The notes beneath the pieces are model-generated. The model was not told where the DNA came from and made no database searches. It worked only from the letters and a program-made list of their open reading frames with translations. 34,917 bases of DNA, from the NCBI GenBank assembly GCA_945870865.1, contig CAMBTO010000018.1:1-34917 (forward strand), read 5' to 3'. Each line of letters begins with the position of its first letter. The stretch's first letter is position 1. Source of the stretch: Klebsiella pneumoniae. Its GTDB lineage: Bacteria > Pseudomonadota > Gammaproteobacteria > Eutrophobiales > Eutrophobiaceae. The translations under genes were made by a program, and so were the position numbers. Shown piece after piece: positions 7,733 to 34,917 of this stretch.

Positions 7733-8157
7733 ACATTACGGATTCCCTTTCCCCGAATAAACCGGTTTCTTCCACTAACATCCACACGAATTCCATACAC
7801 AACGGCGACATGTTGTAGTGTCGTTTGCGGATAATTCACACGCCCTACTAGGTAAGCGGCAAATTAAGGAAAAATAAGGGATTTTCTGGCCTGGCCAGTA
7901 ACGGAAATGTTACACTGGCAGGAAATTTCCGGCCGTTATTACGGTTAAAACCGCGCAGTATTTTTTGTGTGTGCCGATGCGGGTTTTCCAGGGGTACGTC
8001 AGTGACCGGTCGCGGTAAGCTTGCCAGGCAGGCCTCCAGTACGGGTCAGGACTTTCAGTCACAGATAAACCCGGTCAGGCGGTTTCTGAAAACACGTAAG
8101 CGAGAAATGTTGACAGTCTGACCCAGGCAGTAACGCCGGCATTGATAGAAACAGCAG
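7733..8157. other. 425-bp intergenic leader before the receptor array
   Basis: No convincing gene was found. The region holds a perfect dyad CTGGCCTGGCCAG (7886-7898), the hairpin GTAAC/GTTAC immediately after it, the palindrome GGAAATTTCC (7921-7930), and two copies of GAAATGTT (7904 and 8104), which is the outer half of the gammaproteobacterial Zur box. A TTGACA at 8110-8115 has no matching -10. The region probably carries the promoter and leader for copies 1-4 of the array, but no promoter can be fixed by eye. Confidence 0.5.
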
Positions 8158-10326
8158 ATGAGAATGACAGTAAACAAAAAATCAGTGGCTCACTTTTCCG
8201 ATGGCTTGTTGCGTACAACAGTTTATTTGTCGATCCTGATAGCCCTGTTATCGAGCCCGTTACTGGCCCAGCAGAACGATGCTGCATCTGCCGTTGCCGA
8301 AACGGGTCAGGACGGGCAGCATACAATTGAGTATCCGGCGGTTTTTTTCAGCCGCTATAACCCGGCCACCGCACTTGATATGGTAAACCAGTTGCCCGGG
8401 TTCCAGCTTGATGACGGCAGTGGCGACCGGGGTTTCAGTGCGGCCAGCGGAAATATACTGATTAATGGACGCTTGCCAAGCGCGAAGGAAGACTCACCGT
8501 CTGCCATCCTCGGCCGAATTCCCGCCAGCCAGGTGGCACACATCGAATTGATCCGCGGTCAGATGCGTGGTGTGGACATGCGCGGACAGACCGTTATTGC
8601 CAATATCCTGCTGCAGGAGGATGTCCCCGCCACCGTACGCTGGGAGACAGCGGTCAGGAAAAATCTGGACGTGGACAAATTGATGATGCGTGGAAATATC
8701 TCCCTGTCCGACCAGTGGCATGCCATTGATTTCAATTCCGGATTAAGTGTGGCGCGCAGTGCAACCGGTGAACGCGGCCTGGAAGACCGTTTTGATGGCA
8801 GTGGTCTGTTGACAGAGAAGCGGGTTGAAAATTCTACAGAGGGTGGACACAAGCTGGGAGCCAGGTTAAACGCGTCCGGCTGGGCTGGGCAGACACGCCT
8901 GCAGCTGAATTCCAGTATTGATCATATGACCGAAACCGAACCGTTCGTGTCGGTCCGTACCCCACAGTCGCCCGTATCCGCCCCACGCTCGGAAAGATTC
9001 AATTCAGATAGCGAAGAGCTGGAGTTTGAACTGGGTATCAATGCAGAGCGCGATCTGGGTGCAGAGCTGACCGGCAAGGCCATCCTGCTGTTTATAAGTG
9101 ATGATGCGACGGAAGTTGATACACAAACCAGTATCAGTGCGGCAAATCTGCAGACCCAACGCAGGCAGGCGGATGCCGAAGCGGTCAGCACCGAAGGCAT
9201 TGCACGGCTGGAGTTTGACTGGAGCGGTATTGAAAACCATGCACTGCAGCTGAACGTGGAAGGCGCGTACAACGAGCTGGACGGCAGTTTGTTGCAGGTA
9301 GTGGATCGTGGTCTGGGTGCAATGGTCGTGGATGTGCCTGGCGCGAACTCGGTGGTGGAAGAGGTGCGCAGTGATTTTCTGCTGAAAGATACGTGGTCGC
9401 TGGGGAAGTTTGAACTGGACTACGGCCTCGGCGCGGAGAGTTCGACGATAACCCAGCGTGGGGATGCCGTGCTGGAGCGAGATTTTTTCTTTGTGAAACC
9501 GCATGCGTTGTTAAGTTATGCGCCGGGTCAGGGTCGGCAGACGCGTTTGCGTCTGGCACGTGAGGTGGCGCAGCTGGAATTTGATGATTTTATCAGTGCG
9601 ACGGTGTACGAGGACGATGACCTGGCGCTGGGAAATCCGAACCTGCGACCTGACACGACGTGGGTGGCAGAACTGGGCCATGAGCGTCGGTACGGGGAGC
9701 TTGGTGTGGTGAAAGTGACCTTGTTCCATCACTGGATCCATGACGTATTGGACTTGTTGCCGTTGTCAGACAGTTTTGAGGCACCGGGCAATATCGGCGA
9801 CGGACGGCGTTGGGGCGTGGAGTTAGAGAACACGGTGCCGCTGGAGTGGCTGGGGCTGACGGGTGCGCGGCTGGATGTAAAACTGCGCTGGCAGGACTCC
9901 TCGGTGACCGACCCGGTTACCGGCGTGCGGCGTATGTTGTCTGGTAACAGTGGATTTGGTGGTACGCCGTATATCGATTTTCGGGACGAGAATGAATATG
10001 CGTTCATCGCTGACTATCGCCAGGACCTGGCACAGACCCGCGTGGCCTGGGGCGTGAATATGGGTATGCGGGCGAAGCGCCCTTTGTACAAGGTGAATGA
10101 ACTGGATGTCTACGATGAAGGGACCTCGGTGAATGCCTTTGTGGAAACGACTCGCTGGTTTGGACTGAAACTGCGTTTTCTTGCCGAGAACATTCCGAAC
10201 CTGTCGCAGCGCCGTGACCGTACGTCCTATGCGGGCCTCCGGAATTTGTCTGCTGTCGATTTTCGCGAGATATCTGTCGGCAGGGAAGGTGTCCGCCTTA
10301 CTTTTTTAACCAGCGGGAGTTTCTAG
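8158..10326 (+). CDS. TonB-dependent receptor-like plug/beta-barrel protein, array copy 1
   Basis: A signal peptide (cleavage near LLA-QQ, residue 37) is followed by the motif TIEYPAVFFSRYNPATALDM, a plug domain (about residues 65-155: QLPGF, DRGF, NILINGRLPS, RIPASQVAHIELIRGQ), and a beta barrel ending in GSF, the terminal aromatic read by the BAM complex. The barrel holds ALGNPNLRPDTTW, a common TonB-receptor barrel pattern. It lacks a carboxypeptidase-like N-terminal extension and a signalling domain. Residues from FDWSGI to RRMLSG are almost identical to copies 3 and 6. Ligand unknown. ATG 8158 or 8164 could start the protein; neither has a strong Shine-Dalgarno. First gene of a close-packed set of four. 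Confidence 0.85.
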   Translation: MRMTVNKKSVAHFSDGLLRTTVYLSILIALLSSPLLAQQNDAASAVAETGQDGQHTIEYPAVFFSRYNPATALDMVNQLPGFQLDDGSGDRGFSAASGNILINGRLPSAKEDSPSAILGRIPASQVAHIELIRGQMRGVDMRGQTVIANILLQEDVPATVRWETAVRKNLDVDKLMMRGNISLSDQWHAIDFNSGLSVARSATGERGLEDRFDGSGLLTEKRVENSTEGGHKLGARLNASGWAGQTRLQLNSSIDHMTETEPFVSVRTPQSPVSAPRSERFNSDSEELEFELGINAERDLGAELTGKAILLFISDDATEVDTQTSISAANLQTQRRQADAEAVSTEGIARLEFDWSGIENHALQLNVEGAYNELDGSLLQVVDRGLGAMVVDVPGANSVVEEVRSDFLLKDTWSLGKFELDYGLGAESSTITQRGDAVLERDFFFVKPHALLSYAPGQGRQTRLRLAREVAQLEFDDFISATVYEDDDLALGNPNLRPDTTWVAELGHERRYGELGVVKVTLFHHWIHDVLDLLPLSDSFEAPGNIGDGRRWGVELENTVPLEWLGLTGARLDVKLRWQDSSVTDPVTGVRRMLSGNSGFGGTPYIDFRDENEYAFIADYRQDLAQTRVAWGVNMGMRAKRPLYKVNELDVYDEGTSVNAFVETTRWFGLKLRFLAENIPNLSQRRDRTSYAGLRNLSAVDFREISVGREGVRLTFLTSGSF

Positions 10327-10329
10327 GTT

Positions 10330-12465
10330 ATGCATGAGATTACGATGAACCGACATAAGGTGTTAATGCTGTTAATCCTGTCGGGTAGTCCGGTGCTTGC
10401 GGCTGCACAAGCGGCGCAGGGCTCAGCTACACCACCGGGTGTCAGTAGTGCCTCGGAGGCACAGGTGGTTGAATATCCGGCGAATTTTTTCAGTCGGTAT
10501 AAACCAAATACGGCGCTCGACATGATAAACCAGACACCAGGTTTCCTGCTTGATGACGGCGATGCCTCACGTGGTCTTGGTGCAGCGGCAGGTAATATAC
10601 TGGTCAATGATCGACGGCCGAGTGCCAAGCAGGACTTGCCCTCACTGATCCTGTTGCGCATACCGGCTGCACAGGTCGAGCGCATCGAGATTATCCGTGG
10701 CCAGGTCCGCGATATCGACCTGCAAGGCCAGGCCGTTATTGCCAATATCGTGTTACGCAATGACTCCCCGGCGGCAATTCGTTGGGAGGCGTCCTGGCGT
10801 TATAATGTCGATTACTTCAGCACATTTGAAGGCAGTATCTCGATTGCCGACCGCTGGCGCGAAACTGACTACAACGCTGGCCTCAATATGCGCCGATTCA
10901 CCCGCGGCGATTTGACCGTGCAGCAGACCTATAACGGTGCCGGTGAGTTGATTGAAATCCGTCGGGATGATGCTGACCTCGGTGGGTATCGCGGTGGTGG
11001 CAACCTGACGACCTCAAGCTGGTTTGGTCAGACACTGTTACAGGTGAATGCAAACTTCTTTGGCGAGGATCGTGACGGTTTGCGGTTTGCCAACCGCGTA
11101 CCGGAGACGCCCGCAGGTATTCGTCGTAGCGAACATATCGGAGAGGACTACCAGATGGCCCAGTTTGAACTGGGCGTCGATGCAGAACGTCGCTTGCGCG
11201 ATGACCTGACCGGCAAGTTGATCGGTGTCATCACCCATGGATTTGATGACATCTCATCAACCTTGCGCCGTTTTAACGCAACGGGTAACCAGACACTGTT
11301 CCGTATCGCCGATGCAGGCACCGATTCAACCGAGGCGATCTCGCGTATTGAGTTTGACTGGGCCTTCATGGCGAACCATACACTGCAGTTCAACACGGAA
11401 GGCGCATATAACTCGCTGGAAGGTGACCTGTTCCAGACCGAGGATACCGGGGCCGGACCGTTCGAGGTGGCCGTGCCGGGGGCGAACACATTGGTAGAAG
11501 AAACCCGCTGGGACTTTTTACTGAAGGACACCTGGTCGTTGGGCCAGTATGAGCTGGATTATGGTATGGGAGCGGAATCCTCCACCATCTCGCAAACCGG
11601 TGATGCCGAACAGGAACGCAGTTTTTTTTATATCAAACCGCAGGCCGTGTTGACCTACACGGCTGATGAGGGCGCCCAGTCGCGTTTGCGTCTGGCGCGC
11701 GAAGTTGCCCAGTTGAACTTTGATGATTTTGTCAGTGCAACCGTGTTTGAAGACGATGATCTTGCACTCGGCAATCCCAATCTGCGCCCGGACAATACCT
11801 GGGTTGCCGAGCTCAGTCACGAGCGCCGTTTTGGCCCGGAGAGTGTGGCCAAGGTAACACTGTTCCATAACTGGATTGAGGATGTGCTGGACCTGTTGCC
11901 GCTTACCTCGACCTTTGAGGCGCCAGGTAATATCGGCAATGGTACACGCTGGGGAATCAATGCCGAGGGTAGTATGCCGCTGGAGTGGCTGGGTCTGACC
12001 GGGGCGAAGATTGATGTGAATGCGCGCTGGCAGAAATCCTCGGTCACCGATCCTGTCACCGGCGAGAAACGTGTCCTGTCCAGTCGTACACGACCGGGCG
12101 CCATCTTCCCGCTGTCGTTCCGAGACGATAACCGGTTTGCAGTTATTGTTGATTTTCGCCAGGATTTTCAGAAGTCGCGGATGGCCTGGGGTTGGGACAT
12201 GCGGACGCGTGCCGAACGGCCACTGTATAAAGTGAACGAGCTTGATATTGCGGATGACGAGTATGAGGTCAATGTGTTTGTCGAGACCACCCGCTGGTTT
12301 GGCCTGAAGTCGAAAATGATTGCCGAGAATATTTTTGACATGGTGGAGAACCGTGATCGTACGATTTACACAGGTGAGCGTGGTCTGACCCCGGTGGCAA
12401 CACGTGAGTATCGTGAACGTGTGCGTGGATTCCGGGTTTCGTTTGAGCTGAACGGGAGTTTCTAG
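10330..12465 (+). CDS. TonB-dependent receptor-like plug/beta-barrel protein, array copy 2
   Basis: Begins 3 bp after copy 1. ATG 10330 has GGGAG about 10 nt upstream, as copy 3 does; ATG 10345 gives a more typical signal peptide (MNRHKVLMLLILSG) and is equally possible. After the signal come VVEYPANFFSRYKPNTALDM, a plug with NILVNDRRPS and RIPAAQVERIEIIRGQ, and a barrel with ALGNPNLRPDNTW, YKVNELD, FVETTRWFG and final GSF. The middle barrel keeps the same framework as copies 1, 3 and 6 but is clearly more diverged, so it was not part of the recent sequence exchange among them. The outer-membrane receptor call is solid; the substrate is unknown. Confidence 0.85.
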   Translation: MHEITMNRHKVLMLLILSGSPVLAAAQAAQGSATPPGVSSASEAQVVEYPANFFSRYKPNTALDMINQTPGFLLDDGDASRGLGAAAGNILVNDRRPSAKQDLPSLILLRIPAAQVERIEIIRGQVRDIDLQGQAVIANIVLRNDSPAAIRWEASWRYNVDYFSTFEGSISIADRWRETDYNAGLNMRRFTRGDLTVQQTYNGAGELIEIRRDDADLGGYRGGGNLTTSSWFGQTLLQVNANFFGEDRDGLRFANRVPETPAGIRRSEHIGEDYQMAQFELGVDAERRLRDDLTGKLIGVITHGFDDISSTLRRFNATGNQTLFRIADAGTDSTEAISRIEFDWAFMANHTLQFNTEGAYNSLEGDLFQTEDTGAGPFEVAVPGANTLVEETRWDFLLKDTWSLGQYELDYGMGAESSTISQTGDAEQERSFFYIKPQAVLTYTADEGAQSRLRLAREVAQLNFDDFVSATVFEDDDLALGNPNLRPDNTWVAELSHERRFGPESVAKVTLFHNWIEDVLDLLPLTSTFEAPGNIGNGTRWGINAEGSMPLEWLGLTGAKIDVNARWQKSSVTDPVTGEKRVLSSRTRPGAIFPLSFRDDNRFAVIVDFRQDFQKSRMAWGWDMRTRAERPLYKVNELDIADDEYEVNVFVETTRWFGLKSKMIAENIFDMVENRDRTIYTGERGLTPVATREYRERVRGFRVSFELNGSF

Positions 12466-12469
12466 TCTG

Positions 12470-14596
12470 ATGAGGTGTGGTCTGTCGTATCGTCCAGTTT
12501 TTTTGCTGGCGTTGTTAGTTGCTGTGGTACCGATTGTTGGTGTTGAGGCCCAGGTAGTTAAGGCCACGGAGCCGGACGGTTTGTCACGGGACAACCTGGT
12601 CGTTGAATACAGTGCTGATTATTTTGGTCGTTACCGGCCGAATACCGCGCTTGACATGGTGCGCCAGTTACCCGGCTTTCAGCTTGATGATGGTGAACAG
12701 ATTCGCGGGTTTGCCTCGGCCGTCGGCAATATTCTGATCAACGATAAATATACCAGTGCCAAGCAGGATTTGCCCTCCGCCATTCTGGCCCGTATCCCCG
12801 CACGCCAGGTAGATCGTATCGAACTGATACGTGGACAGGTCCGTGATATTGACCTGCAGGGCCGTGCACTGGTGGCCAATGTGATCCTGCGCAACGATGT
12901 CCCGGCCACCGTACGTTGGGATGCGTTTCTGGAGGATAACAGTGCCGCACCGCTGAAGCCGGGTGCCAGTATATCGATTTCAGATGTGTGGCAGGACGTC
13001 GAGTTTAACGTGGGTCTCAGTGCTGAACGTGATTCCAGCGGTCGTTATGGTTCGGAGGAGCTGTTCGATGGTAATGGTAATCTGACGGAACAGCGAAGTG
13101 AGGACACCCGTGAGTCAGGATTGAAGATCAACGGTGTTTTTTTGAATGCATCTACCTGGAGGGGGGATACCCAGGTCAATCTGAACAGCAAGTTCAGTAT
13201 GTATGATTCCGAGCGGAAACAGATATCCGACCGGTTCCGTGTGCCTGTGAGCAGTCCGGGCGAGCAGGTCATCATTGTAGATGAAGAACGTAACAAGGAG
13301 ATCGAGCTCGGCGCTGATGCACAGCGTCGTCTTGCAGCAGATCTGACCGGCAAGGCGATCCTGTTGTTTTTCCGGCAGCAGGAGGATCCTGTTTCCACCC
13401 AGACCAGTCTTGATCATTCAGGTGTATTACAACAATTACGTCGGGCCAGCACGGACAACAGGCGCACCGAAGGTATTGCACGGATGGAGTTTGACTGGAG
13501 CGGGATCACGAACCATGCGGTGCAGTTGAACGTCGAGGGCGCGTACAACGAGCTGGACGGCAGTTTGTTACAGGTGGTGGATCGTGGTCTGGGTGCAATG
13601 GTCGTGGATGTGCCGGGCGCGAACTCGGTGGTGGAAGAGGTGCGCAGTGATTTTCTGCTGAAAGATACGTGGTCGTTGGGAGAGTTTGAACTGGACTATG
13701 GTCTGGGTGCGGAGAGTTCAACGATATCGCAGACCGGCGATGCTGAACTCGGGCGCGATTTTTTCTTTGTGAAGCCGCATGCGTTGTTAAGTTATGCGCC
13801 GGGTCAGGGCAGCCAGACGCGGCTGCGGCTGGCACGTGAGGTGGCGCAGCTGGATTTTGAAGATTTTATCAGTGCAACGGTGTACGAGGACGATGATCTG
13901 GCGCTGGGAAATCCGAACCTGCGCCCGGACACGACGTGGGTGGCGGAGGTGGGCCATGAGCGTCGTTATGGTGAGCTCGGCGTGATGAAGGTAACGTTAT
14001 TCCATCACTGGATCCGTGATGTGCTGGATCTGTTGCCGCTGTCGGACAGTTTTGAGGCGCCGGGCAATATCGGCGACGGACGGCGTTGGGGTGTGGAGTT
14101 GGAGAATACGGTGCCGCTGGAGTGGCTGGGGCTGACGGGTGCACGGCTGGATGTGAAGCTGCGCTGGCAGGACTCCTCGGTGACCGACCCGGTTACCGGC
14201 GCGCGGCGTATGTTGTCTGGTGATGGTGGCTACCGTACGCTGGCGAATCTGGGCAGGAACTTGCCGTATTATTTCAATATCGATTTTCGTCAGGACTTTG
14301 ATAAGGCACAGTTCGCCTGGGGCTGGACGTTGGCCGAGCGTGCCGCCAGAAAACTGTACAAGGTAAATGAATTTGAATACAACAATGAAAATTATGCGAT
14401 GAACGTCTTTGTGGAAACCACACGCTGGTTTGATACCAAGGTCAGGCTGTCGGTGGACAATATCTTCAACTATACCATCCTGCGTACACGTACTGTTTAT
14501 GACGGCATACGTGACGGGTCACCTCTGGATTTTTTCTCCGAACGGGAACGCAATATTGGATACCGGTTTGTGCTGTCGATGAGTGGAAATTACTGA
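12470..14596 (+). CDS. TonB-dependent receptor-like plug/beta-barrel protein, array copy 3
   Basis: Starts 4 bp after copy 2. Signal peptide (cleavage after VEA), then VVEYSADYFGRYRPNTALDM, plug with NILINDKYTS and RIPARQVDRIELIRGQ, then barrel ending GNY instead of GSF. The first barrel half (about residues 160-330) differs strongly from copy 1, while from FDWSGI on it suddenly becomes about 94% identical to copy 1 by hand count (some 14 changes in about 245 residues) up to RRMLSG, after which it diverges again. The C-terminal part is also the most unusual of the six (YKVNEFEYNNENYAMN). This is the clearest mosaic member. Confidence 0.85.
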   Translation: MRCGLSYRPVFLLALLVAVVPIVGVEAQVVKATEPDGLSRDNLVVEYSADYFGRYRPNTALDMVRQLPGFQLDDGEQIRGFASAVGNILINDKYTSAKQDLPSAILARIPARQVDRIELIRGQVRDIDLQGRALVANVILRNDVPATVRWDAFLEDNSAAPLKPGASISISDVWQDVEFNVGLSAERDSSGRYGSEELFDGNGNLTEQRSEDTRESGLKINGVFLNASTWRGDTQVNLNSKFSMYDSERKQISDRFRVPVSSPGEQVIIVDEERNKEIELGADAQRRLAADLTGKAILLFFRQQEDPVSTQTSLDHSGVLQQLRRASTDNRRTEGIARMEFDWSGITNHAVQLNVEGAYNELDGSLLQVVDRGLGAMVVDVPGANSVVEEVRSDFLLKDTWSLGEFELDYGLGAESSTISQTGDAELGRDFFFVKPHALLSYAPGQGSQTRLRLAREVAQLDFEDFISATVYEDDDLALGNPNLRPDTTWVAEVGHERRYGELGVMKVTLFHHWIRDVLDLLPLSDSFEAPGNIGDGRRWGVELENTVPLEWLGLTGARLDVKLRWQDSSVTDPVTGARRMLSGDGGYRTLANLGRNLPYYFNIDFRQDFDKAQFAWGWTLAERAARKLYKVNEFEYNNENYAMNVFVETTRWFDTKVRLSVDNIFNYTILRTRTVYDGIRDGSPLDFFSERERNIGYRFVLSMSGNY

Positions 14597-14597
14597 T

Positions 14598-16721
14598 ATG
14601 AATATAAATAAACACACACCATTGCTGGCACTACTATTTGCGATTGCTTCCAGTGCGGTAATGGCGCAGAACTCGGGTTCGGAGGCCGGGCAGGCGATTG
14701 ACCCCTCCGCACAACTGGTTGATTACCCGGCGGCTTTTTTCTCCCGCTACAACCCGAATACAGCACTTGACATGGTCCGTCCGGTCCCGGGTTTTCAGAT
14801 GGATGACGGAAGTTCAGATCGTGGCTTTATCAGTGCGGTAGGCAATATCCTGATTAATGACAAGTATCCCAGTGTCAAGCAGGATACGCCAACGGCGATG
14901 CTGGCGCGTATACCTGCCAATCAGGTTGAGAAGATAGAGCTGATACGTGGGCAGGTACGTGAGATTGATCTGCAGGGTCGGTCTCTGGTGATCAATGTAA
15001 TACTCAAGGACACGTCAAAGGCATCTGTACGTTGGGAAACCTTCATACAACACAGTAACAGGGGGCCAATTAAGCCGATTGCCAGTATCTCCCTGTCAGA
15101 TCGCTGGCAGCAGACGGACTATAACGTCGGGTTTAACGTCGAGCGTGAGTCAAACGGTGAAGAGGGTACTGACTATATCTATAACAGTGCGGGTCGCCTC
15201 TCTGAAATACGTCGCGACAAACTTACCCAGACCGGCCTGAAACAGATGGACCTGTTTCTGAATACCTCATCCATGTTCAGTACAACCCGTTTGCAGTTTA
15301 ACGGCAAGGCCACTTTTAAAAATGGCCCGGAAAACCAGTTACAGAGTCGCGAACCACAAATCACCGGACGTCCAAGCGCCGTATTTTTCAAGGACAGTCA
15401 GAACACACCATCGTTTGAACTGGGTCTGACTGCCGACCGGGAACTGGCAACGGATCTCAAATCAAAGGCGATATTGCTGTATACCTACAGTGACTTTAAT
15501 GTGATCAACCTGCAGCAAAATACCAATGCAGACGGATTGTCCACATTGCTCCGGATTGCAGATACCGAGACCCGGACCCGTGAAGCGATCGGACGTGTCG
15601 AGTTTGACTGGGCGGGAATTACCAACCATAACCTGCAGTTCAATCTGGAAGCGGCCTATAACTCGGTAGAAGGTTTGCTTGCGCAAACGGATGATACCGG
15701 CACGGGCCCTGTCATTGTTGAGGTGCCAGGTGCAAACTCACTGGTCGAGGAGACCCGTGGGGATTTTTCACTGAAAGATACGTGGAACCTCGGGAAGTTT
15801 GAGCTGGATTATGGCCTGGGTGCGGAGGTTTCCCGCATTACCCAGACCGGAGATACAGAACAGCAGCGTGACTTTTTCTTCCTCAAACCGCAGGCCACGC
15901 TGACCTGGTCGCCAGTCGCCGGGCAGCAGACGCGCTTGTTATTGCTGCGTGATATTGCCCAACTGGATTTTGATGATTTTATCAGCGCCACTGTGTTTGA
16001 GGACGATGATTTGGCGCTCGGCAATCCTGACCTGCGCCCGGATACCACATGGGTTTCTGAATTGAGCCATGAATATCGCTATAACAGCCGTGGTGTCATC
16101 AAGCTGACGGCATTTCACCACTGGATCCGTGATGTGCTGGATCTGTTGCCCTTGTCTGAAACATTCGAGGCCCCCGGCAATATTGGCGATGGCCGGCGCT
16201 GGGGCATGATACTGGAGTTTACCGTGCCGCTGGATTGGTCCGGCCTGCACGGTGCACGCCTTGATATCAAGTCACGCTGGCAGGATTCTGCGGTGACGGA
16301 CCCGGTCACCGGCAGGACGCGGATACTGTCAGCAGCACAGGTCGGTTTCGGCGGACCTCCACAGGTCCGCTTCGCCGATAATGGCAGTCGTTATATTTAT
16401 GATATCGCCTATCGTCAGGATCTTGAACAGCTGGATGTGTCGTGGGGCGTTGATTTTGCGATGCAATCCAGTCGTCCACAGTTCAAGGTAAATGAACTGG
16501 AAGTTTATGATGAAGGTACCGAAATAAATGCCTTTGTTGAAACGACACGCTGGTTCGGCGTCAAGCTAAGACTGGAAGGCAATAACCTGCTGGACTATTC
16601 CGAGATCAGAAACCGGACGATTTATGCTGGCGAGCGTGACCTTACGCCGGTGGCATCACAGATTTACAGGGACAGGATGGCAGGACGCCGCATCAAGCTG
16701 GTACTGAGTGGCAGTTTTTAA
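14598..16721 (+). CDS. TonB-dependent receptor-like plug/beta-barrel protein, array copy 4
   Basis: ATG 14598 lies 1 bp after the stop of copy 3 and gives a clean signal peptide (cleavage after AVMA); an in-frame GTG at 14583 would overlap copy 3 and adds five non-signal residues. The product has LVDYPAAFFSRYNPNTALDM, a plug with NILINDKYPS and RIPANQVEKIELIRGQ, and a barrel ending in GSF. Its barrel follows the family framework (ALGNPDLRPDTTW, YKVNELEVYDEGT, FVETTRWFG) but is not part of the near-identical block of copies 1, 3 and 6. Last gene of the close-packed four; an inverted repeat follows. Confidence 0.85.
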   Translation: MNINKHTPLLALLFAIASSAVMAQNSGSEAGQAIDPSAQLVDYPAAFFSRYNPNTALDMVRPVPGFQMDDGSSDRGFISAVGNILINDKYPSVKQDTPTAMLARIPANQVEKIELIRGQVREIDLQGRSLVINVILKDTSKASVRWETFIQHSNRGPIKPIASISLSDRWQQTDYNVGFNVERESNGEEGTDYIYNSAGRLSEIRRDKLTQTGLKQMDLFLNTSSMFSTTRLQFNGKATFKNGPENQLQSREPQITGRPSAVFFKDSQNTPSFELGLTADRELATDLKSKAILLYTYSDFNVINLQQNTNADGLSTLLRIADTETRTREAIGRVEFDWAGITNHNLQFNLEAAYNSVEGLLAQTDDTGTGPVIVEVPGANSLVEETRGDFSLKDTWNLGKFELDYGLGAEVSRITQTGDTEQQRDFFFLKPQATLTWSPVAGQQTRLLLLRDIAQLDFDDFISATVFEDDDLALGNPDLRPDTTWVSELSHEYRYNSRGVIKLTAFHHWIRDVLDLLPLSETFEAPGNIGDGRRWGMILEFTVPLDWSGLHGARLDIKSRWQDSAVTDPVTGRTRILSAAQVGFGGPPQVRFADNGSRYIYDIAYRQDLEQLDVSWGVDFAMQSSRPQFKVNELEVYDEGTEINAFVETTRWFGVKLRLEGNNLLDYSEIRNRTIYAGERDLTPVASQIYRDRMAGRRIKLVLSGSF

Positions 16722-16727
16722 ACACGT

Positions 16728-16785
16728 GTTCTGAAATCCACCACTGGCCGGTGTCAGCCATAGGGTATCAGCCGGATTTCGGAAC
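16728..16785 (+). repeat. Inverted repeat after receptor copy 4 (terminator-like)
   Basis: GTTCTGAAATCC (16728-16739) pairs with GGATTTCGGAAC (16774-16785) over 12 bp, with one U-G pair if transcribed on the plus strand; the 34-nt loop has its own CACTGGCCGGTG dyad. There is no long T-run, so it may be an imperfect terminator or an RNA-stabilising hairpin. The left arm resembles the one after copy 6. Confidence 0.55.
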
Positions 16786-16853
16786 AGTTATTTGACAAGA
16801 CATACATCCGTTGCTTTGGCACCGGTAATAGCAATCAACACAGGGTAACTATT

Positions 16854-18977
16854 ATGAACAAGTGGTCAGGATATACATTACTGATAGCAGGAATGACGAT
16901 GGCTTTTGCCTCCAGTGCACAACCCACTGCTGAACCGATTCATGAGACGGGCGCCGTCAGTGAGGATTCCGTGCGTACGGTCGAATATCCTGCGGCTTTT
17001 TTTATGCGCTATCAACCAAACACAGCGCTGGATATGGTCAAGCAGTTGCCGGGTTTCCAGCTGGATGATGGTGACAGCGCGCGCGGGTTTACCACCGCAG
17101 CCGGAAACATCCTGATCAACGATCGTCGCCCCAGTGTCAAACAGGACACACCTTCGGCTATCCTCAATCGTATACCATCCAGCAATGTCATTCGTATTGA
17201 TCTGGTCAGGGGACAGATGAGTGGTGTGGACATGCAGGGGCAGCCGGTGGTAGCCAATATCATCATGCGCGAGGAGTCCCCTGCGGCCGTTCGCTGGGAA
17301 AGTTTTCTCTGGAAAAATTTCTATACCGGTACCGTGATGCCGGGGGGCAGTATTTCACTGTCTGACAAATGGAACGGTTTTGACTTTAACGCGGGTCTTG
17401 AAGGAAATCGTCACGTCCACGTAACGAAGGGTCAGCGTGATTCGGTCGACGCGGCCGGCAACCTGCTAGAGGATCGCTCGGACAAGAACAATAATTCACA
17501 TTTCACCGTCAGCGGCAACCTGAATGCAAGCGGCTGGATTGGACAGACCTTGATGCAGTTGAATGCTGAACTCGGGTTTAATGATATCAGTGACAAGACA
17601 ACATCAAACCGATTGCCCCAGGCCGTCGGCAGTACCCCGCGTAGCGAATTTTTTAATGAGGGAAGGCGCAGCAATGATATTGAGCTGGGTGTGAATGCGG
17701 AACGTGAACTGGGGAAAGACCTTACCGGCCGGTCTATCCTGATATTTACCCGGACTGACCTTGATACCTCATCCGATCAGACCGCACTCAATTCTACCGG
17801 ACAGCAAACCCTGTTCAGGGAGTCCGATACCGGGACGTTAACAACAGAAGGGATTGGCCGTATCGAGTTTGAGTGGCGTCGGATAGCCGACCATTCCATC
17901 CAGTTTAACGCTGAAGGTGCCTACAATGAACTTGATAACGCGCTGCTTCAGACCGTCAATACCGGTGCCGGGGCTGTGGTGGAGCTTATCCCCGGTGCGA
18001 ATGCCCGTGTGGAAGAGGTACGCTGGGACTTTCTGTTAAAGGACACCTGGTCGCTCGGTATTTTTCAGCTGGACTATGGCATGGGTGCCGAGGCCTCGCA
18101 GATATCACAGACCGGTGATTCTGAACTGGAACGTGACTTTTTCTTTCTCAAACCCCAGAGCATGATCAGTTATGCGCCGGAAAAAGGCAGACAAACTCGT
18201 TTACGACTGGCGCGGGAAGTTTCCCAACTTGATTTTGATGACTTTGTCAGTGCCGCCGAATTCCAGGATGAAGACCTTGCCCTCGGCAACCCGAACCTGA
18301 GCCCGGACAAGACCTGGCTACTGGAATTGAGTCATGAGCAACGCTTTGGAGATATCGGTGTGGTTAAGGTTACTGCGTTTCATCACTGGATTACCGATGT
18401 GGTTGATCTGTTGCCACTGTCATCCACATTTGAAGCACCGGGTAATATCGGGGATGGTAAACGCTGGGGATTGAAGGTCGAAAACACTATCCCGCTGGAC
18501 TGGTTGTTGCTTGATAATGCCAGACTGAATATCCGTGCCCGCTGGCAGGATTCGACTGTTGTAGATCCGGTGACGGGACTTAACCGTGTACTCTCGGGTG
18601 AGAGTGGACTGACAGGCAATATTCCCTTCAAGGATGAGGATATCAAATATACTGCGGCTGTCGATTTCCGTCAGGATTTCCAGCAGGCCAAAGTGGCCTG
18701 GGGTTGGGAGACAAAATTCCGTGATGCGCGGATACTCTATAAAGTGAATGAGCTGGATATCTATGACGAAGGTACCGAGATCAGTCTGTTTACAGAGACT
18801 ACACGCTGGTTCGGTGTAAAGATACGCGCGACGCTAAAGGACCTGCTTAACACGGACAGGACACGTGTGCGCACGATCTATCTCGGTGAACGTGACAGTT
18901 CCGGGGTCAATCGGCGTGAGTTGATTGAAAACAGGCGCGGTCGCCAGCTGGATCTGGTTGTCAGTGGCAGTTTCTAG
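16854..18977 (+). CDS. TonB-dependent receptor-like plug/beta-barrel protein, array copy 5
   Basis: ATG 16854 has AGGGTAA about 6 nt upstream, the best Shine-Dalgarno of the six copies. Signal peptide to about FASSA, then TVEYPAAFFMRYQPNTALDM, plug with NILINDRRPS and RIPSSNVIRIDLVRGQ, barrel ending GSF. The barrel keeps the family landmarks (ALGNPNLSPDKTW, YKVNELDIYDEGT, FTETTRWFG) but is the most diverged in the central block. A 132-bp spacer with an inverted repeat separates it from copy 4, so it is likely its own transcription unit. Outer-membrane receptor function is inferred from the fold; the ligand is unknown. Confidence 0.85.
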   Translation: MNKWSGYTLLIAGMTMAFASSAQPTAEPIHETGAVSEDSVRTVEYPAAFFMRYQPNTALDMVKQLPGFQLDDGDSARGFTTAAGNILINDRRPSVKQDTPSAILNRIPSSNVIRIDLVRGQMSGVDMQGQPVVANIIMREESPAAVRWESFLWKNFYTGTVMPGGSISLSDKWNGFDFNAGLEGNRHVHVTKGQRDSVDAAGNLLEDRSDKNNNSHFTVSGNLNASGWIGQTLMQLNAELGFNDISDKTTSNRLPQAVGSTPRSEFFNEGRRSNDIELGVNAERELGKDLTGRSILIFTRTDLDTSSDQTALNSTGQQTLFRESDTGTLTTEGIGRIEFEWRRIADHSIQFNAEGAYNELDNALLQTVNTGAGAVVELIPGANARVEEVRWDFLLKDTWSLGIFQLDYGMGAEASQISQTGDSELERDFFFLKPQSMISYAPEKGRQTRLRLAREVSQLDFDDFVSAAEFQDEDLALGNPNLSPDKTWLLELSHEQRFGDIGVVKVTAFHHWITDVVDLLPLSSTFEAPGNIGDGKRWGLKVENTIPLDWLLLDNARLNIRARWQDSTVVDPVTGLNRVLSGESGLTGNIPFKDEDIKYTAAVDFRQDFQQAKVAWGWETKFRDARILYKVNELDIYDEGTEISLFTETTRWFGVKIRATLKDLLNTDRTRVRTIYLGERDSSGVNRRELIENRRGRQLDLVVSGSF

Positions 18978-18979
18978 AT

Positions 18980-18994
18980 AACCTGTTTCAGGTT
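18980..18994 (+). repeat. Small hairpin after receptor copy 5
   Basis: AACCTG and CAGGTT form a 6-bp stem with a TTT loop two bases after the stop codon of copy 5. No T-run follows, so termination is uncertain. Confidence 0.4.
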
Positions 18995-19002
18995 CTCGGA
19001 CA

Positions 19003-19116
19003 CAACAGCCGTCTGATTATTATCGTTCCAGACACGCTGTAAATACATCCGTGTACGCTCGGGCGCCGCACCCATGCGGCTAATAGTCTGTCACGATAAT
19101 AACCAGACGACTGTTG
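19003..19116. repeat. Palindromic dispersed element, copy A (conserved core, unique arms)
   Basis: Two 31-nt arms (19003-19033 and 19086-19116) are inverted repeats with 27 of 31 positions matching. Between them lies a core with TACATCCGTGTA, GCTCGGG and the hairpin GCCGCA/TGCGGC. The core, including inner ends TCCAGAC and GTCTGTCACGA, recurs at 34.81-34.92 kb, whereas the outer 20 or so bases of the arms are unrelated between the two copies. It resembles REP/MITE-like intergenic elements. It separates receptor copies 5 and 6. Confidence 0.7.
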
Positions 19117-19156
19117 CCGATTTTCTGTGGAATCTGTAAAAGTTTGTAATGAGGAT

Positions 19157-21280
19157 ATGACTTTGCCTGACTTTATGAACGCCCCATTATCAGTGTTCCT
19201 GCTGTCTGCTGTGCTGGTTATGCCATATGCAAACGCGCAGCAGGAGCAACCGGACACAGCTACGGTGATATCGGATCAGGTGGTCAAATATGACGCGGCA
19301 TTTTTTGCACGTTATCAGCCGAATACCGCGTTCGACATGGTCAAGCAGGTGCCTGGGTTCCAGCTCGATGACGGCGACAGCAACCGCGGTTATGCCGCGT
19401 CTGCCGGTAATGTGCTTATTAATGGCAGACGTCCCAGTGCCAAACAGGACAGACCCTCCGCTATCCTCTCGCGTATTCCGGCCGGTCAGGTCCTCGCTAT
19501 CGAACTGATCCGTGGCCAGATGCAAGGCCTGGACATGCTGGGTCAACAGGCGGTCATCAATGTGCAGATGCTTGACGATGCCCCGGCGGCGGTCCGTTGG
19601 GAGAGCTTCTTGTTGTACACCAGTTCCGGGCCGATCAAGCCCGGGGTGAAGGCCTCATTGTCGGACCACTGGAGAGACATTGAATATAACATCGGTATTG
19701 GTATCGAACGGAATTCCAACGGTGAGTTCGGGCCGGAGCAGGTCTATGATGGAAACGGACAGCTGGTAGAGGATCGTTATGATGACGAAGACGAAACCGG
19801 ACTGACGCTGTCTGGCCTGTTTGTGAATGCAGCCAGCTGGATAGGACGGAACCATGTGCAGGTCAACGGCAAGTTTGGACTGGTCAATGCGCCTGAAGTA
19901 CGAATGTCCAGTCGTACGCCCCGCCTGCCTGACAAACCCTATAATGTCTTTTTCCGCGATGGCCAGCATAGTGAAACCTATGAGCTGGGTATGGACGCAG
20001 AGCGCACGCTGGCGAGTGAACTGGCCGGCAAGGCGATCCTGCTTTATATACGCAAGGAAGTAGACGTGTTATCAACGCAGAGTACACGTGAACCTGGCGG
20101 TCAGCAGGCGTTTTACCGTCAGGCACGGACAGCCTCGGTCAGCACCGAAGGCATTGCGCGGATGGAGTTTGACTGGAGCGGAATTACGGACCATGCGGTC
20201 CAGCTGAACGTGGAGGGTGCGTACAACGAGCTGGACGGCAGTTTATTTCAAATGGTTGACCGCGGTCCGGGGCCAGTGGTTGTTGATGTGCCGGGCGCGA
20301 ACTCGGTGGTGGAAGAGGTGCGCGGTGATTTTTTGTTGAAAGACACCTGGTCGCCGGAAAAATTTGAACTGGACTACGGCCTCGGCGCGGAGAGTTCGAC
20401 GATAACCCAGCGAGGAGATGCCGCGCTAGAGCGTGATTTTTTCTTTGTGAAGCCGCATGTGATATTCAGTCATATCCCGGTCCCGGGTCGGCAGACGCGT
20501 TTGCGTCTGGCTCGTGAGGTGGCGCAGCTGGATTTTGAAGATTTCATCAGTGCCACGGTATATGAGGACGATGATCTGGCGCTGGGTAATCCAAACTTGC
20601 GACCGGACACGACGTGGGTGGCAGAGCTGGGTCATGAGCGTCGATATGGGGAACTCGGTGTGGTAAAAGTAACCTTGTTCCATCACTGGATCCATGATGT
20701 GCTGGACCTGTTGCCGTTGTCAGCGAGTTTTGAGGCACCGGGCAATATCGGTGATGGCCGGCGTTGGGGCGTAGAGCTGGAGAACACGGTGTCGCTGGAG
20801 TGGCTGGGGCTGACGGGTGCGCGGCTGGATGTGAAGCTGCGCTGGCAGGACTCCTCCGTAACCGACCCGGTCACCGGCTTGGAACGCCAATTGACTGCCA
20901 ATGCCGGTTTCAGTGGTCCACCGGCCATCCGTTTTCGCAGCGAAAATGATTACGTATACTTAATCACGTATCGTCAGGATCTGCAGGCCTCGCATCTCGC
21001 CTGGGGCTGGGACGTGGCTGAACAGGCCGAGCGTCCGATATACAAGGTTAACGAACTGGAGATTAATGACGAGGGTGTGCTGATTAACCTGTTCGTGGAG
21101 ACGACGCGCTGGTTCGGACTGAAGTTTCGGGTCGAGGGCAATAATCTGCTTGATTATGATGAGCTGCGCGATCGGTTTATCTACACCGGTGGCCGTGATT
21201 TGACACCATTGAAGTCACGGATCGTCCGCAATCGTTCAGCCGGCAGGCGTCTGAATCTGGTGGTCAGCGGTACTTTCTGA
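19157..21280 (+). CDS. TonB-dependent receptor-like plug/beta-barrel protein, array copy 6
   Basis: Start at ATG 19157 is chosen for the TGAGGA just upstream; an in-frame GTG at 19127 has no Shine-Dalgarno, and ATG 19175 is a later alternative. The product (707 residues, as copies 4 and 5) has a signal peptide ending ANA, then VVKYDAAFFARYQPNTAFDM, a plug with NVLINGRRPS and RIPAGQVLAIELIRGQ, and a barrel ending in GTF. From FDWSGI to DPVTG it closely matches copies 1 and 3 (roughly 25 differences from copy 1 by hand count), while the flanks match copy 4 better, notably the C-terminal EGNNLLDY segment. A long inverted repeat follows and the zinc operon is next. Confidence 0.85.
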   Translation: MTLPDFMNAPLSVFLLSAVLVMPYANAQQEQPDTATVISDQVVKYDAAFFARYQPNTAFDMVKQVPGFQLDDGDSNRGYAASAGNVLINGRRPSAKQDRPSAILSRIPAGQVLAIELIRGQMQGLDMLGQQAVINVQMLDDAPAAVRWESFLLYTSSGPIKPGVKASLSDHWRDIEYNIGIGIERNSNGEFGPEQVYDGNGQLVEDRYDDEDETGLTLSGLFVNAASWIGRNHVQVNGKFGLVNAPEVRMSSRTPRLPDKPYNVFFRDGQHSETYELGMDAERTLASELAGKAILLYIRKEVDVLSTQSTREPGGQQAFYRQARTASVSTEGIARMEFDWSGITDHAVQLNVEGAYNELDGSLFQMVDRGPGPVVVDVPGANSVVEEVRGDFLLKDTWSPEKFELDYGLGAESSTITQRGDAALERDFFFVKPHVIFSHIPVPGRQTRLRLAREVAQLDFEDFISATVYEDDDLALGNPNLRPDTTWVAELGHERRYGELGVVKVTLFHHWIHDVLDLLPLSASFEAPGNIGDGRRWGVELENTVSLEWLGLTGARLDVKLRWQDSSVTDPVTGLERQLTANAGFSGPPAIRFRSENDYVYLITYRQDLQASHLAWGWDVAEQAERPIYKVNELEINDEGVLINLFVETTRWFGLKFRVEGNNLLDYDELRDRFIYTGGRDLTPLKSRIVRNRSAGRRLNLVVSGTF

Positions 21281-21282
21281 AG

Positions 21283-21332
21283 AACAGTTTCGAAATCCAC
21301 GCCGCGATTCTGAACAGGATTTCGAAACTGTT
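21283..21332 (+). repeat. Perfect 16-bp inverted repeat after receptor copy 6
   Basis: AACAGTTTCGAAATCC (21283-21298) and its exact reverse complement (21317-21332) enclose an 18-nt loop. It lies 2 bp after the stop codon and separates the receptor array from zur. It may end transcription, although only short T stretches follow. The arm resembles that after copy 4. Confidence 0.6.
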
Positions 21333-21401
21333 ATTCATGTCTATTAATGCCAGTATAGTTACATCAGACCCGTATATATCTATCTGAACGAGAAAAGAAT
21401 T

Positions 21402-21430
21402 TTGCTGTAATACACCCTATTTGTTATATT
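21402..21430 (+). promoter_or_regulatory. Probable sigma70 promoter of the zur-znu operon
   Basis: TTGCTG (21402-21407) and TATATT (21425-21430) are 17 bp apart. The -10 lies inside the Zur-box palindrome, the arrangement expected for repression by promoter occlusion. Confidence 0.55.
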
Positions 21431-21440
21431 ATAACAAATA
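21418..21440. promoter_or_regulatory. Zur-box palindrome
   Basis: A perfect 23-bp palindrome: TATTTGTTATA, one central T, and TATAACAAATA. It closely fits the known gammaproteobacterial Zur box (outer A/T-rich bases, TGTTATA-n-TATAACA core). It lies 26 bp before the zur ATG and covers the -10, so zur and znuACB should be repressed by Zur when zinc is plentiful. Confidence 0.85.
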
Positions 21441-21466: not shown

Positions 21467-21958
21467 ATGCATACACACCAGATAGTCAGTCCGTTCAGGG
21501 ATGCCGATCACCATCATGCTGATTGTATGGACACGGCGCTGGGCAAGGCAGAAGACAGTTGTTTACGCCGCGGCCTGCGGCTGACGGCGATACGTCGGCG
21601 TGTGCTGGAGCTGGTGTGGACCAAGCATGAGCCGGTCAAGGCCTATGATTTGCTGGAGGCACTGAAGCAGGAAAAAAAGGGTGCGGCACCGCCTACGGTA
21701 TATCGTGCGCTGGAATTCCTGCAGCAACAGGGTTTTGTGCACCGGATTGAATCGTTGAATGCCTATGTCGGTTGCGGCGAACCCGGACATCAGACGACGG
21801 CGCAGTTCCTGATATGTCATGTGTGTGGCGTAGTGGCGGAACTTGAAGACAGGGAGATCGGAAATCTGATTGCCAGCAAGGCGCACCAGCTGGGTTTCAC
21901 CAGCAAGCATCAGACCATCGAAGTACATGGTTTGTGTACCACCTGTGGGTCGGACTAA
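21467..21958 (+). CDS. zur: Zinc uptake regulator Zur (Fur family)
   Basis: The 163-residue protein has a His-rich N-terminus (HTH, DHHHADC), the Fur-type DNA-binding segment RGLRLTAIRRRVLELVW and recognition helix PPTVYRALEFL (about residues 75-85), and the two CxxC structural zinc motifs CHVC (117-120) and CTTC (157-160). EVHGLC fits the regulatory zinc site region. It should repress zinc uptake genes when zinc is bound. The position directly in front of znuACB and behind a Zur-box palindrome supports Zur rather than Fur. Zur appears autoregulated here. The N-terminal extension of about 25 residues is slightly long, so a later start is possible, but no better ATG is seen before residue 21. 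Confidence 0.9.
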   Translation: MHTHQIVSPFRDADHHHADCMDTALGKAEDSCLRRGLRLTAIRRRVLELVWTKHEPVKAYDLLEALKQEKKGAAPPTVYRALEFLQQQGFVHRIESLNAYVGCGEPGHQTTAQFLICHVCGVVAELEDREIGNLIASKAHQLGFTSKHQTIEVHGLCTTCGSD

Positions 21959-21988
21959 GTCCGTCCCACCCGACGCCAGATACCCCTC

Positions 21989-22828
21989 GTGTTCCTGTTA
22001 TCCCGATTGTTGCTGTTGCTGTCAGCGCTGGTTTTCGATGTTGCGGTAGCGGATCGGGTAGGTGTATTTGTAAGTATCCCTCCCCAGCGCCAGTTCGTTC
22101 AGAAAATCGGTGGCGAGCATGTTGATATTCATGTGATGTTGCCGGCCGGTCAGTCTCCCGAGACCTACTCTCCCTCACCGAAAATGCTGGCCTCGCTGTC
22201 GGTCGCAGAGGTGTATTTCCAGATCGGTGTACCATTCGAGGTCAGCTGGACCGATGCCATCCGCTCTGCGAACAGCGATATCCATATAGCCACTTGTTGT
22301 GAACATATAGTTGGTCTCGCACCAGTGTCCTACATGCACGACCATCAAGATCTGCACATCTGGAGCAGTCCGGTTGCCGTGAAACGTCTGGCAACACAAA
22401 TTCGCGATGAGTTAACTCTGATAGATCCTGCACACACGGATGATTATCAACAGGGATATTTATCTTTTATAGCCGAGCTGGACGCGCTGGATGCGCGTAT
22501 ACGTGCCAGCCTGGTCGACAGACGTGTGGATCATTTTATTGTTTCGCACGCGGCATGGGGATATTTTGCCGAACAATACGGACTGGTTCAGCTTGCACTG
22601 GAAAACAATGGCAAGGAAAGTGGTCCACGCAGCCTGCTGGATATCATCAGACTGGCCAGGGACGAGGACATCCATACCGTATTTTCGATTAAACAATACC
22701 AGACCCCGGTCGTCGGCAGTCTGGCCCGCGAACTCAAGGCCACTGTGGTTGAACTGGATCCGCTGGCAGAAGACTATCTTGCTAATATGGCACAGGTGTC
22801 CGCACAGATTGCCGGGTCACTGAAATGA
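21989..22828 (+). CDS. znuA: Zinc ABC transporter substrate-binding protein ZnuA, variant metal site
   Basis: GTG 21989 is the only plausible start ahead of the signal peptide (cleavage near FDVAVA, residue 21); the Shine-Dalgarno is weak. The 279-residue product is a cluster A-I solute-binding protein: VSIPPQRQFVQKIGGEHVDIHVMLPAG, then DLHIWSSP (His123), FIVSHAAWG (His187) and VELDPLAEDY (Asp257) give three of the four usual metal ligands. The first ligand, normally His in P-H-x-Y, is Glu58 here (SPETYSP). The His-rich loop of many ZnuA proteins is reduced to MHDHQD. It should capture zinc (or a related divalent ion) in the periplasm for ZnuB/ZnuC. It overlaps znuC by ATGA. Confidence 0.85.
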   Translation: MFLLSRLLLLLSALVFDVAVADRVGVFVSIPPQRQFVQKIGGEHVDIHVMLPAGQSPETYSPSPKMLASLSVAEVYFQIGVPFEVSWTDAIRSANSDIHIATCCEHIVGLAPVSYMHDHQDLHIWSSPVAVKRLATQIRDELTLIDPAHTDDYQQGYLSFIAELDALDARIRASLVDRRVDHFIVSHAAWGYFAEQYGLVQLALENNGKESGPRSLLDIIRLARDEDIHTVFSIKQYQTPVVGSLARELKATVVELDPLAEDYLANMAQVSAQIAGSLK

Positions 22829-23544: not shown

Positions 23545-23555
23545 TATCCGCACCC

Positions 23556-34825: not shown

Positions 34826-34917
34826 GTCGCTCCAGACACGCCGTGAATACGTCCATGTAGGCTCGGGTGCCGCATCCCTGCGGCACACGGTCTGTCACGA
34901 CCTAATCGGCCTGCTGA
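34810..34917. repeat. Palindromic dispersed element, copy C (reaches the window end)
   Basis: Arms 34810-34837 and 34890-34917 are inverted repeats with 25 of 28 positions matching; the outer 20 are perfect. The core has ACGTCCATGTAGGCTCGGG and the hairpin TGCCGCA/TGCGGCA, with inner ends TCCAGAC and GTCTGTCACGA as in the copy at 19.0 kb. The palindrome may continue past the window. The arms share no sequence with those of the other copy beyond the inner ends. Confidence 0.75.

Follow-up and report, generated by a model that had tools for sequence, protein, structure and literature searches.

Relation to described systems

Environmental bacteria carry dozens of TonB-dependent transporters (TBDTs), the ligands of which are mostly unknown. 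Groups of the pyoverdine receptor FpvA are told apart by limited regions in or near the plug, at residues 168-295 of FpvA (PMC11444679), DdvT-type TBDTs of Sphingobium SYK-6 have been reported in connection with lignin-derived aromatics (PMC6874591), and prokaryotic paralogues are described as undergoing a long-lasting concerted evolution in which recurrent gene conversion keeps them alike (PMC6053082). The FpvA receptors of that account were compared among strains, whereas in the locus studied here six paralogues coexist in one array. By the description given of the DdvT-type transporters the array can be likened to them, and an aromatic ligand is a candidate here. The account of concerted evolution, the main text of which does not mention TonB, differs from the present case, in which half of the gene is homogenised while the rest diverges. 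With TBDTs in general (FecA, FhuA, PhuR, ChuA, BtuB, OprC and ZnuD) the array receptors share the same plug and 22-strand barrel but differ from them by an identity of 8-15% in the listed matches and by weak recognition in Pfam.

The array is a variant within this known transporter class and not a new class, and gene conversion of a half-barrel among three of its members is an unexpected, new feature. Among the papers listed by the literature searches, judged mainly by title, none describes such a receptor array. The first-pass annotation had weighed an uncommon array against a common conserved locus with a described substrate; the locus proved to be conserved in its genus, and no described substrate was found. 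Six long-separated paralogues, three of which have a common half-barrel, offer a natural experiment for telling the parts that set specificity from the common TBDT machinery.

Organisation and conservation of the array

The window, that is the whole stretch of 34,917 nucleotides analysed here, holds six intact forward-strand genes of one family, which fill positions 8158-21280 in the open reading frame list. The array genes and their flanks are as follows.

5936-7732, forward strand: CopD and cytochrome c fusion, upstream flank (PF05425, PF00034; synteny)
8158-10326, forward strand: T1, TBDT of 722 residues (PF00593 at 54.2 bits; AlphaFold model)
10330-12465, forward strand: T2, TBDT of 711 residues (reading frame; alignment with T1)
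12470-14596, forward strand: T3, TBDT of 708 residues (reading frame; PF00593; alignment with T1)
14583-16721, forward strand: T4, TBDT of 712 residues from GTG (reading frame; alignment with T1; later ATG possible)
16854-18977, forward strand: T5, TBDT of 707 residues (reading frame; alignment with T1; AlphaFold model mef65368ce0c5)
19127-21280, forward strand: T6, TBDT of 717 residues from GTG (PF00593 at 48.8 bits; later ATG possible)
21467-24392, forward strand: zur, znuA, znuC and znuB, downstream flank (PF01475, PF01297, PF00005, PF00950; synteny)

T2 to T6 were 53-61% identical to T1 when aligned over their length, far above chance, and the GTG starts of T4 and T6 are uncertain. The N-termini of all six were judged by eye to be signal-peptide-like, and their last residues are F, F, Y, F, F and F. 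Reading frames, alignments and the models of T1 and T5 agree with the first-pass description of six head-to-tail genes of one family with signal-peptide-like N-termini, a plug and an aromatic C-terminus, and its copper-like and zinc neighbours are borne out by the CopD-cytochrome c gene upstream and zur-znuACB downstream. T1 to T4 are probably a single operon, since the gaps T1/T2 and T2/T3 are 3 and 4 nt and T4, if it begins at its GTG, overlaps the end of T3 by 14 nt, against 132 nt before T5 and 149 nt before T6. Upstream of the array stand an amidohydrolase and two VWA proteins besides the CopD-cytochrome c fusion, and downstream DAHP synthase, ccm genes and pdxH besides zur-znuACB.

By searching the window proteins in the loci of the relatives, the array was found in all five genomes of the genus, three of which have it with both flanks on one contig. 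These whole arrays hold 6, 7 and 6 copies (window, G002 and G004) between the same flanks, the genes from the CopD-cytochrome gene to zur being complete in both relatives (seven in G002, six in G004) and the outer flanks the same. In G001, contig C19 carries the left flank with three complete genes, one split and one cut-off gene, and contig C62 carries a fragment, one complete gene and zur-znu. The array of G003 lies on a 6.4-kb contig without flanks that comprises part of T3, T4, T5 and part of T6. In G004 the array and zur stand about 6 kb apart, with other genes in between (L077:9915-15383). Judged by gene content and order, the array is a genus-conserved locus, neither a recent nor a private amplification.

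Some minor features of these loci were also observed. The split array gene of G001 (G001:C19:9513-11548) is either a broken gene or a sequencing error. The genes in the G004 interval encode an ankyrin-repeat protein, a DUF1552 protein and a DUF1592/1588/1587/1585/1595 protein, and the genome of the window has relatives of this ankyrin/DUF1552/DUF1592 cluster close to a different member of the family (L093:1-3401). The record CAMDWI (L031, L035, L037, L038, L042, L044) bears the array and paralogues of the genus, and its Klebsiella pneumoniae label looks wrong.

Fold and class of the receptors

The plug and 22-strand fold was modelled for two of the six copies. AlphaFold gave a plug and a barrel, of 22 strands by our own count, for T5 (pLDDT 82.6, pTM 0.80) and for T1 (pLDDT 83.2, pTM 0.77); strands and loops were assigned by our reading of these models and the strand numbering is our own. 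When the T5 model was compared with known structures by two programs, the 50 matches listed by each were all TBDTs, at 8-15% identity; they take varied ligands and include ZnuD, OprC, FecA and heme receptors. No ligand class stood out among these listed matches; ZnuD (4rdt) at Z 20.2 was one of many TBDTs tied near Z 20.

Pfam models detect the family weakly. With hmmscan at E<=0.001 only T1 and T6 exceeded the PF00593 cut-off, T2 had a PF14905 match below cut-off and T3, T4 and T5 had none, while in the genome-level Pfam search the T3 locus also exceeded the PF00593 cut-off. The plug family PF07715 was matched at E<=0.01 by 20 of 40 family members (best 8e-6), T5 reaching 17.3 bits, which is below cut-off. 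NCBIfam matches to the receptors all lay far below cut-off, and the sequence search of the PDB returned only Cir, at E 8e-4. A VVEYPA-like stretch, seen by eye in most of 37 aligned rows at the place of a TonB box before the plug, may correspond to that element. From the models and these recognitions, T1 to T6 are TonB-dependent transporters of one unusual family, for which TonB-driven uptake is predicted; the first-pass assignment to TBDT-type receptors of an unusual family stands on the plug and 22-strand models of T1 and T5 and on the weak Pfam recognition.

Three known subclasses were considered and rejected. Neither a SusD lipoprotein nor a SusC N-terminal extension was found in the receptors or in 21 scanned neighbours in the window, which sets the array apart from SusC/SusD systems. 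A FecA-type signalling receptor does not fit: the T5 model and the translations leave no room for a signalling domain between signal peptide and plug, and the scanned window neighbours include no sigma or anti-sigma genes. These domain scans of receptors and neighbours agree with the first-pass remark that SusD-like and sigma/anti-sigma genes are missing beside the array. In copper TBDTs of the OprC type the metal is bound by Cys, Met and His. The window receptors have 0-1 Cys (none in T1, T2, T4 and T5, one near the N-terminus in T3 and T6) and 6-12 His each, and the OprC type was set aside on their cysteine content.

Size and distribution of the family

The genome of the window gave 21 family-profile matches, comprising the six array genes, 12 other full-length genes and three fragments, and the five genomes of the genus gave 21, 25, 24, 20 and 17, fragments counted. 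Among 53 genomes of the GTDB family, eight matched at E<=0.001, namely the five of the genus and three at E 2.6e-4 to 8.4e-4; none of the 48 other genomes had a strong match. In a class sample of 369 genomes four matched at E<=1e-20, the own genome included, and the other three contained four matches of 283-299 bits. Two short peptide patterns, scanned in one genome per species, hit 19 loci, all within five metagenome-assembled genomes. As genomes of the genus hold 17-25 matches against few in the family and class samples, the family is thinly spread elsewhere and strongly expanded in the genus. The search for copy number and synteny thus qualified the first-pass view of an uncommon array: it is not private to this genome, the locus being shared and the family being large in each genome of the genus.

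Outside the genus, a Novosphingobium plasmid, whose record carries no annotation, encodes a relative with 29% identity across 88% of T1. This relative and those at 283-299 bits are similar in length and match nearly full-length; they differ from the array in their neighbours and in number, each genome having one or two matches within the small set of candidates that was scored. Two further plasmid matches (24-28% identity), which adjoin phytase genes, were too distant to inform. A remnant of the family, a C-terminal piece with an in-frame stop, was also seen in the genome of the window (G000:C13:16437-16847).

Old lineages at each array position

Trees were built for four segments (plug, N-barrel, central and C-terminal) from 37 proteins, 25 of them from arrays and 12 being non-array members of the own genome; the set excluded fragments, cut-off genes and the gene that is split. 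In the plug and N-barrel trees all six window genes grouped with their positional counterparts in G004 (SH-aLRT 80-99 and 88-97, respectively). The C-terminal tree gave this grouping for five of six (92-100), T6 standing in an open fork with G4_6 and G0_L015, and in the central tree it was retained by T2, T4 and T5 but not by T1, T3 and T6. T2 hence paired with G004 position 2 in all four trees, as did T4 with position 4 and G3_1, and T5 with position 5 and G3_2; T1 and T3 paired with positions 1 and 3 in the plug, N-barrel and C-terminal trees. The positions of G002 are partly traceable: the plug and C-terminal trees place G2_1 with T1, and every segment tree joins G2_5 to T4 and G2_6 to T5. 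Each array position is, as these trees indicate, an old lineage of its own.

Selection was measured between the window and G003, a comparison that covers T4 and T5 whole and T3 and T6 in part, T1 and T2 being without a close orthologue there; many window-G004 pairs were saturated in dS and were not used. Outside the signal peptide (which itself had a dN/dS of 0.23-0.62), every measured segment gave dN/dS of 0.01-0.17, with N-barrel values of 0.06 in T4, 0.06 in T5 and 0.17 in T6. The four measurable copies, T4, T5 and the parts of T3 and T6, are under purifying selection.

A half-barrel shared by T1, T3 and T6

The exception made by T1, T3 and T6 in the central tree coincides with a block of about 250 codons which spans, in the T5 model, the second half of strand 8 to loop 9 and carries loops L5-L8.

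9181-9951, forward strand: T1 copy of the homogenised half-barrel, about residues 342-598 (partners T3 and T6; approximate limits)
13463-14203, forward strand: T3 copy of the homogenised half-barrel, about residues 332-578 (partners T1 and T6; approximate limits)
20135-20905, forward strand: T6 copy of the homogenised half-barrel (partners T1 and T3; approximate limits, placed by offset from T1)

In 20-codon windows the DNA identity of T1, T3 and T6 was 71-98% at alignment codons 360-600 and 27-77% outside them, the first gappy windows excepted. Central dS was 0.46, 0.48 and 0.61 among T1, T3 and T6, whereas the remaining 12 window pairs ranged from 1.33 to saturation. At fourfold sites of shared amino acids the central identity was 0.64 for the three pairs and 0.33 for the other 12 window pairs; the controls gave 0.36 (G004), 0.33 (G002), 0.38 (non-array) and 0.36 (window by non-array), though single non-array pairs reached 0.59 (46 sites). 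In the central tree T1, T3 and T6 formed one clade (SH-aLRT 98). The half-barrel of T1, T3 and T6 is kept alike by gene conversion while the rest of each gene is position-specific.

A permutation of third positions agreed with exchange among T1, T3 and T6 but was not specific, so the claim of conversion rests on dS and fourfold sites. At <=1/1000 it flagged three of 15 window pairs (T1-T3, T1-T6 and T3-T6), one of 15 in G004, none of 21 in G002, one of 66 non-array pairs and none of six window-G004 orthologue pairs. Of the 72 window-by-non-array pairs, four were flagged at 0 of 500. Amino acid conservation can inflate such counts; segment identity was 0.43-0.54 in the other flagged pairs versus 0.67-0.75 among T1, T3 and T6.

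The same switch was present in T3 of G003. Over 88 central codons its T3 was 90.5% identical to T6 of the window, 89.8% to T1 and 89.0% to T3, while its C-terminus was 88.5% identical to T3 of the window, versus 50.6-53.4%, and so near to that gene alone. Its T6 was 93.3% identical to T6 of the window in the N-barrel, versus 48.3-54.4%, and in the central codons 89.8% to T6 versus 86.1% to T1 and 83.7% to T3; as the centre of this gene is somewhat nearer to its own position, mixing is incomplete. The central fourfold identity of window-G003 orthologues (0.59, two pairs) resembles that of the blocks, which suggests that conversion is about as old as the split between the window and G003 or continued later. 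The central tree also groups G4_1 with G4_6 (94), so an exchange between positions 1 and 6 may have occurred in G004 too, where synonymous sites no longer show it.

That the mosaic arose by misassembly of a metagenome-derived genome, which lies in 97 contigs and in which related tracts can be mis-joined, can practically be dismissed, because G003 is a separate assembly with the same switch in T3, and the central blocks differ at 30-44% of compared fourfold sites and are hence not collapsed copies.

Among the six copies, mean identity in the loops was 84% for L7, 84% for L8 and 100% for the three residues assigned to L10, as opposed to 11% for L1, 43% for L2, 16% for L3, 25% for L4, 39% for L9 and 49% for L11. 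Between window and G004 orthologues, L2 is 46% and L11 73% identical. In the consensus from the alignment of 40 family members, L7 and L8 stand out as well. In terms of the modelled loops, L7 and L8 are nearly invariant and L1, L3, L4 and L9 copy-specific. In FecA, L7 and L8 move upon ligand binding.

Proposed function and its alternatives

Position-wise orthology and purifying selection in the four measurable copies argue for distinct maintained functions and make a repertoire of related receptors, one of the roles offered in the first-pass annotation, the best reading. We propose, with a probability of roughly 0.55, that the array is a genus-conserved TBDT repertoire in which each copy takes up a different member of one organic ligand class, the metal genes being bystanders. 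Fold, old positions, purifying selection and the shared half-barrel are computed; ligand uptake by each copy we infer. Each receptor would import its ligand into the periplasm in a TonB-driven manner; the near-invariant L7 and L8 would close the pocket and recognise what the ligands have in common, or a shared partner; and individual specificity would be set by the copy-specific strands 1-8, L1-L4 and the C-terminal strands and loops. Synteny alone would tie the zinc and copper-like genes to the array, as bystanders.

The nature of the ligands was approached through the neighbours of the other family members. For the non-array members and fragments of the own genome, 30 chosen neighbour proteins and then a few more were scanned with Pfam at 1e-8; six of the 30 had no Pfam family at that threshold and many others were uninformative on ligand. 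G0_L015 is adjoined by DctP, DctQ and DctM, and G0_L020 by NMT1 and DctM. Other neighbours were SMP-30, dienelactone hydrolase, alpha/beta hydrolase, SDR, a FAD-binding monooxygenase type, GSDH and PQQ, as well as MmgE/PrpD, a MatC/citrate carrier and an amidohydrolase; Kelch, ankyrin, DUF1028, DUF4159, DUF1800, TauE, a nuclease, a beta-lactamase-like protein, a sulfate permease and others also occurred. The TRAP neighbours of G0_L015 and G0_L020 were kept in three genomes, with DctP and DctM beside relatives of the former (L035, L032) and DctM beside relatives of the latter (L038, L040). A relative of G0_L018 has Kelch and dienelactone hydrolase (L037), and one of G0_L026 a 600-residue protein (L044), a 58% version of which lies about 4 kb away in L047.

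The cargo of TRAP systems is mostly carboxylates, and these systems and the hydrolases adjoining other family members favour oxidised organic compounds. By this analogy carboxylates, aromatic or terpenoid acids, or oligomers of these, are likelier ligands than zinc or copper. No catabolic gene adjoins the array itself. Two further arrangements of family members were seen: at L091:6081-12247 two divergent non-array family genes flank a gene weakly SsuA-type-like (44 bits, cut-off 163.5), adjoining DctPQM and SMP-30 and resembling divergent pairs in L035 and L032, and in two genomes (L034, L046) a family member is followed by four consecutive amidohydrolase-like matches.

A related but doubtful proposal treats the receptors as modular. 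The L7/L8 half-barrel would be a common gating or docking module kept uniform in T1, T3 and T6, and the other half a position-fixed specificity module. New specificities would then arise when a standard half joins a different half.

About equally improbable is that the array imports metal chelates (zincophores, copper chelates or siderophores), ZnuABC providing the inner-membrane step; metal chelates were the guess that the first-pass annotation drew from the neighbours. The CopD-cytochrome c gene and zur-znuACB are indeed conserved flanks, ZnuD, OprC, FecA and heme receptors are among the listed structural matches, and the distant relative L109 adjoins imelysins, DHOR and an ABC transporter, which we take to be genes of the iron-uptake type and which keep metals in consideration. 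Regulation points the other way. One site, a perfect palindrome, was found by pattern scan.

21422-21436, no strand assigned: Zur-box-like perfect palindrome in the array-zur interval, before zur (0-1 mismatches in four genomes)

It is the sole Zur-box match in the window at up to three mismatches and the only place with a zero-mismatch box in the own genome, and it precedes zur with 0-1 mismatches in all four genomes in which the stretch is present in the assembly. At <=3 mismatches no Zur box lies before the first array gene in the window, G004, G002 or G001, the two 3-mismatch matches of G001 being inside array genes and not upstream, and no Fur box was matched in the window. Membership of a zinc or an iron regulon was rejected on these scans. 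Since the conserved Zur box precedes zur and not the array, the nearness of the zinc genes seems incidental; the interval of about 6 kb that parts the array from zur in G004 and the residue content of the receptors (Cys 0-1, His 6-12) also speak against chelate import. The guess from the neighbours is hence weakened by the regulatory scans and by the TRAP and hydrolase neighbours elsewhere, and retains the iron-type neighbours of L109 in its favour. A metal-gene neighbourhood can thus mislead annotation: here the order of the genes is conserved, but only zur has the regulatory box in front of it.

It is improbable to a much greater degree that the copies are largely redundant and retained for amount. 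The tight head-to-tail spacing of T1 to T4 and the half-barrel common to three copies would suit such a role, but the copies are only 53-61% identical to T1 and their position-specific lineages are old.

Slightly less credible still is antigenic or phage-escape variation, in which the copies would be variant surfaces reshuffled by conversion. Conversion among copies is real, the copies are very unlike in their extracellular loops, and L3 and L4 are only 50% and 43% identical when orthologues of the window and G004 are compared. However, L1 is 92% and L9 73% identical in the same comparison, homogenisation affects the most conserved half and not the variable loops, and the N-barrel dN/dS values are low (0.06, 0.06 and 0.17 in T4, T5 and T6). 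The dN/dS of 0.01-0.17 outside the signal peptide in the four measurable copies makes this explanation, also raised in the first-pass annotation, unlikely, and the copy-specific segments are conserved between species, L3 and L4 notwithstanding.

Non-coding elements of the array

Besides the Zur box, three non-coding features were delineated.

7856-7919, forward strand: candidate array promoter region, partly alike in four genomes (alignment judged by eye)
19003-19116, no strand assigned: dispersed hairpin repeat in the T5-T6 spacer (inverted repeat; the spacer matches genome-wide)
21278-21337, no strand assigned: inverted repeat after T6 (21-nt arms, 95% complementary)

Consensus scans found 11 promoter sites, where shuffled sequence gave 10.2 on average, and 10 terminator sites, where it gave 13.4, and Rfam detected no riboswitch or known RNA in the window at gathering scores. 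The hairpin repeat, about 110 bp long and REP- or MITE-like, occurs in the window at 18978-19126 and 34827-34900. The T5-T6 spacer as a query had 40 matches in the own genome, itself counted, and some copies of the repeat adjoin other family members (G000:C21:17116-17223 and C2:25941-26048).
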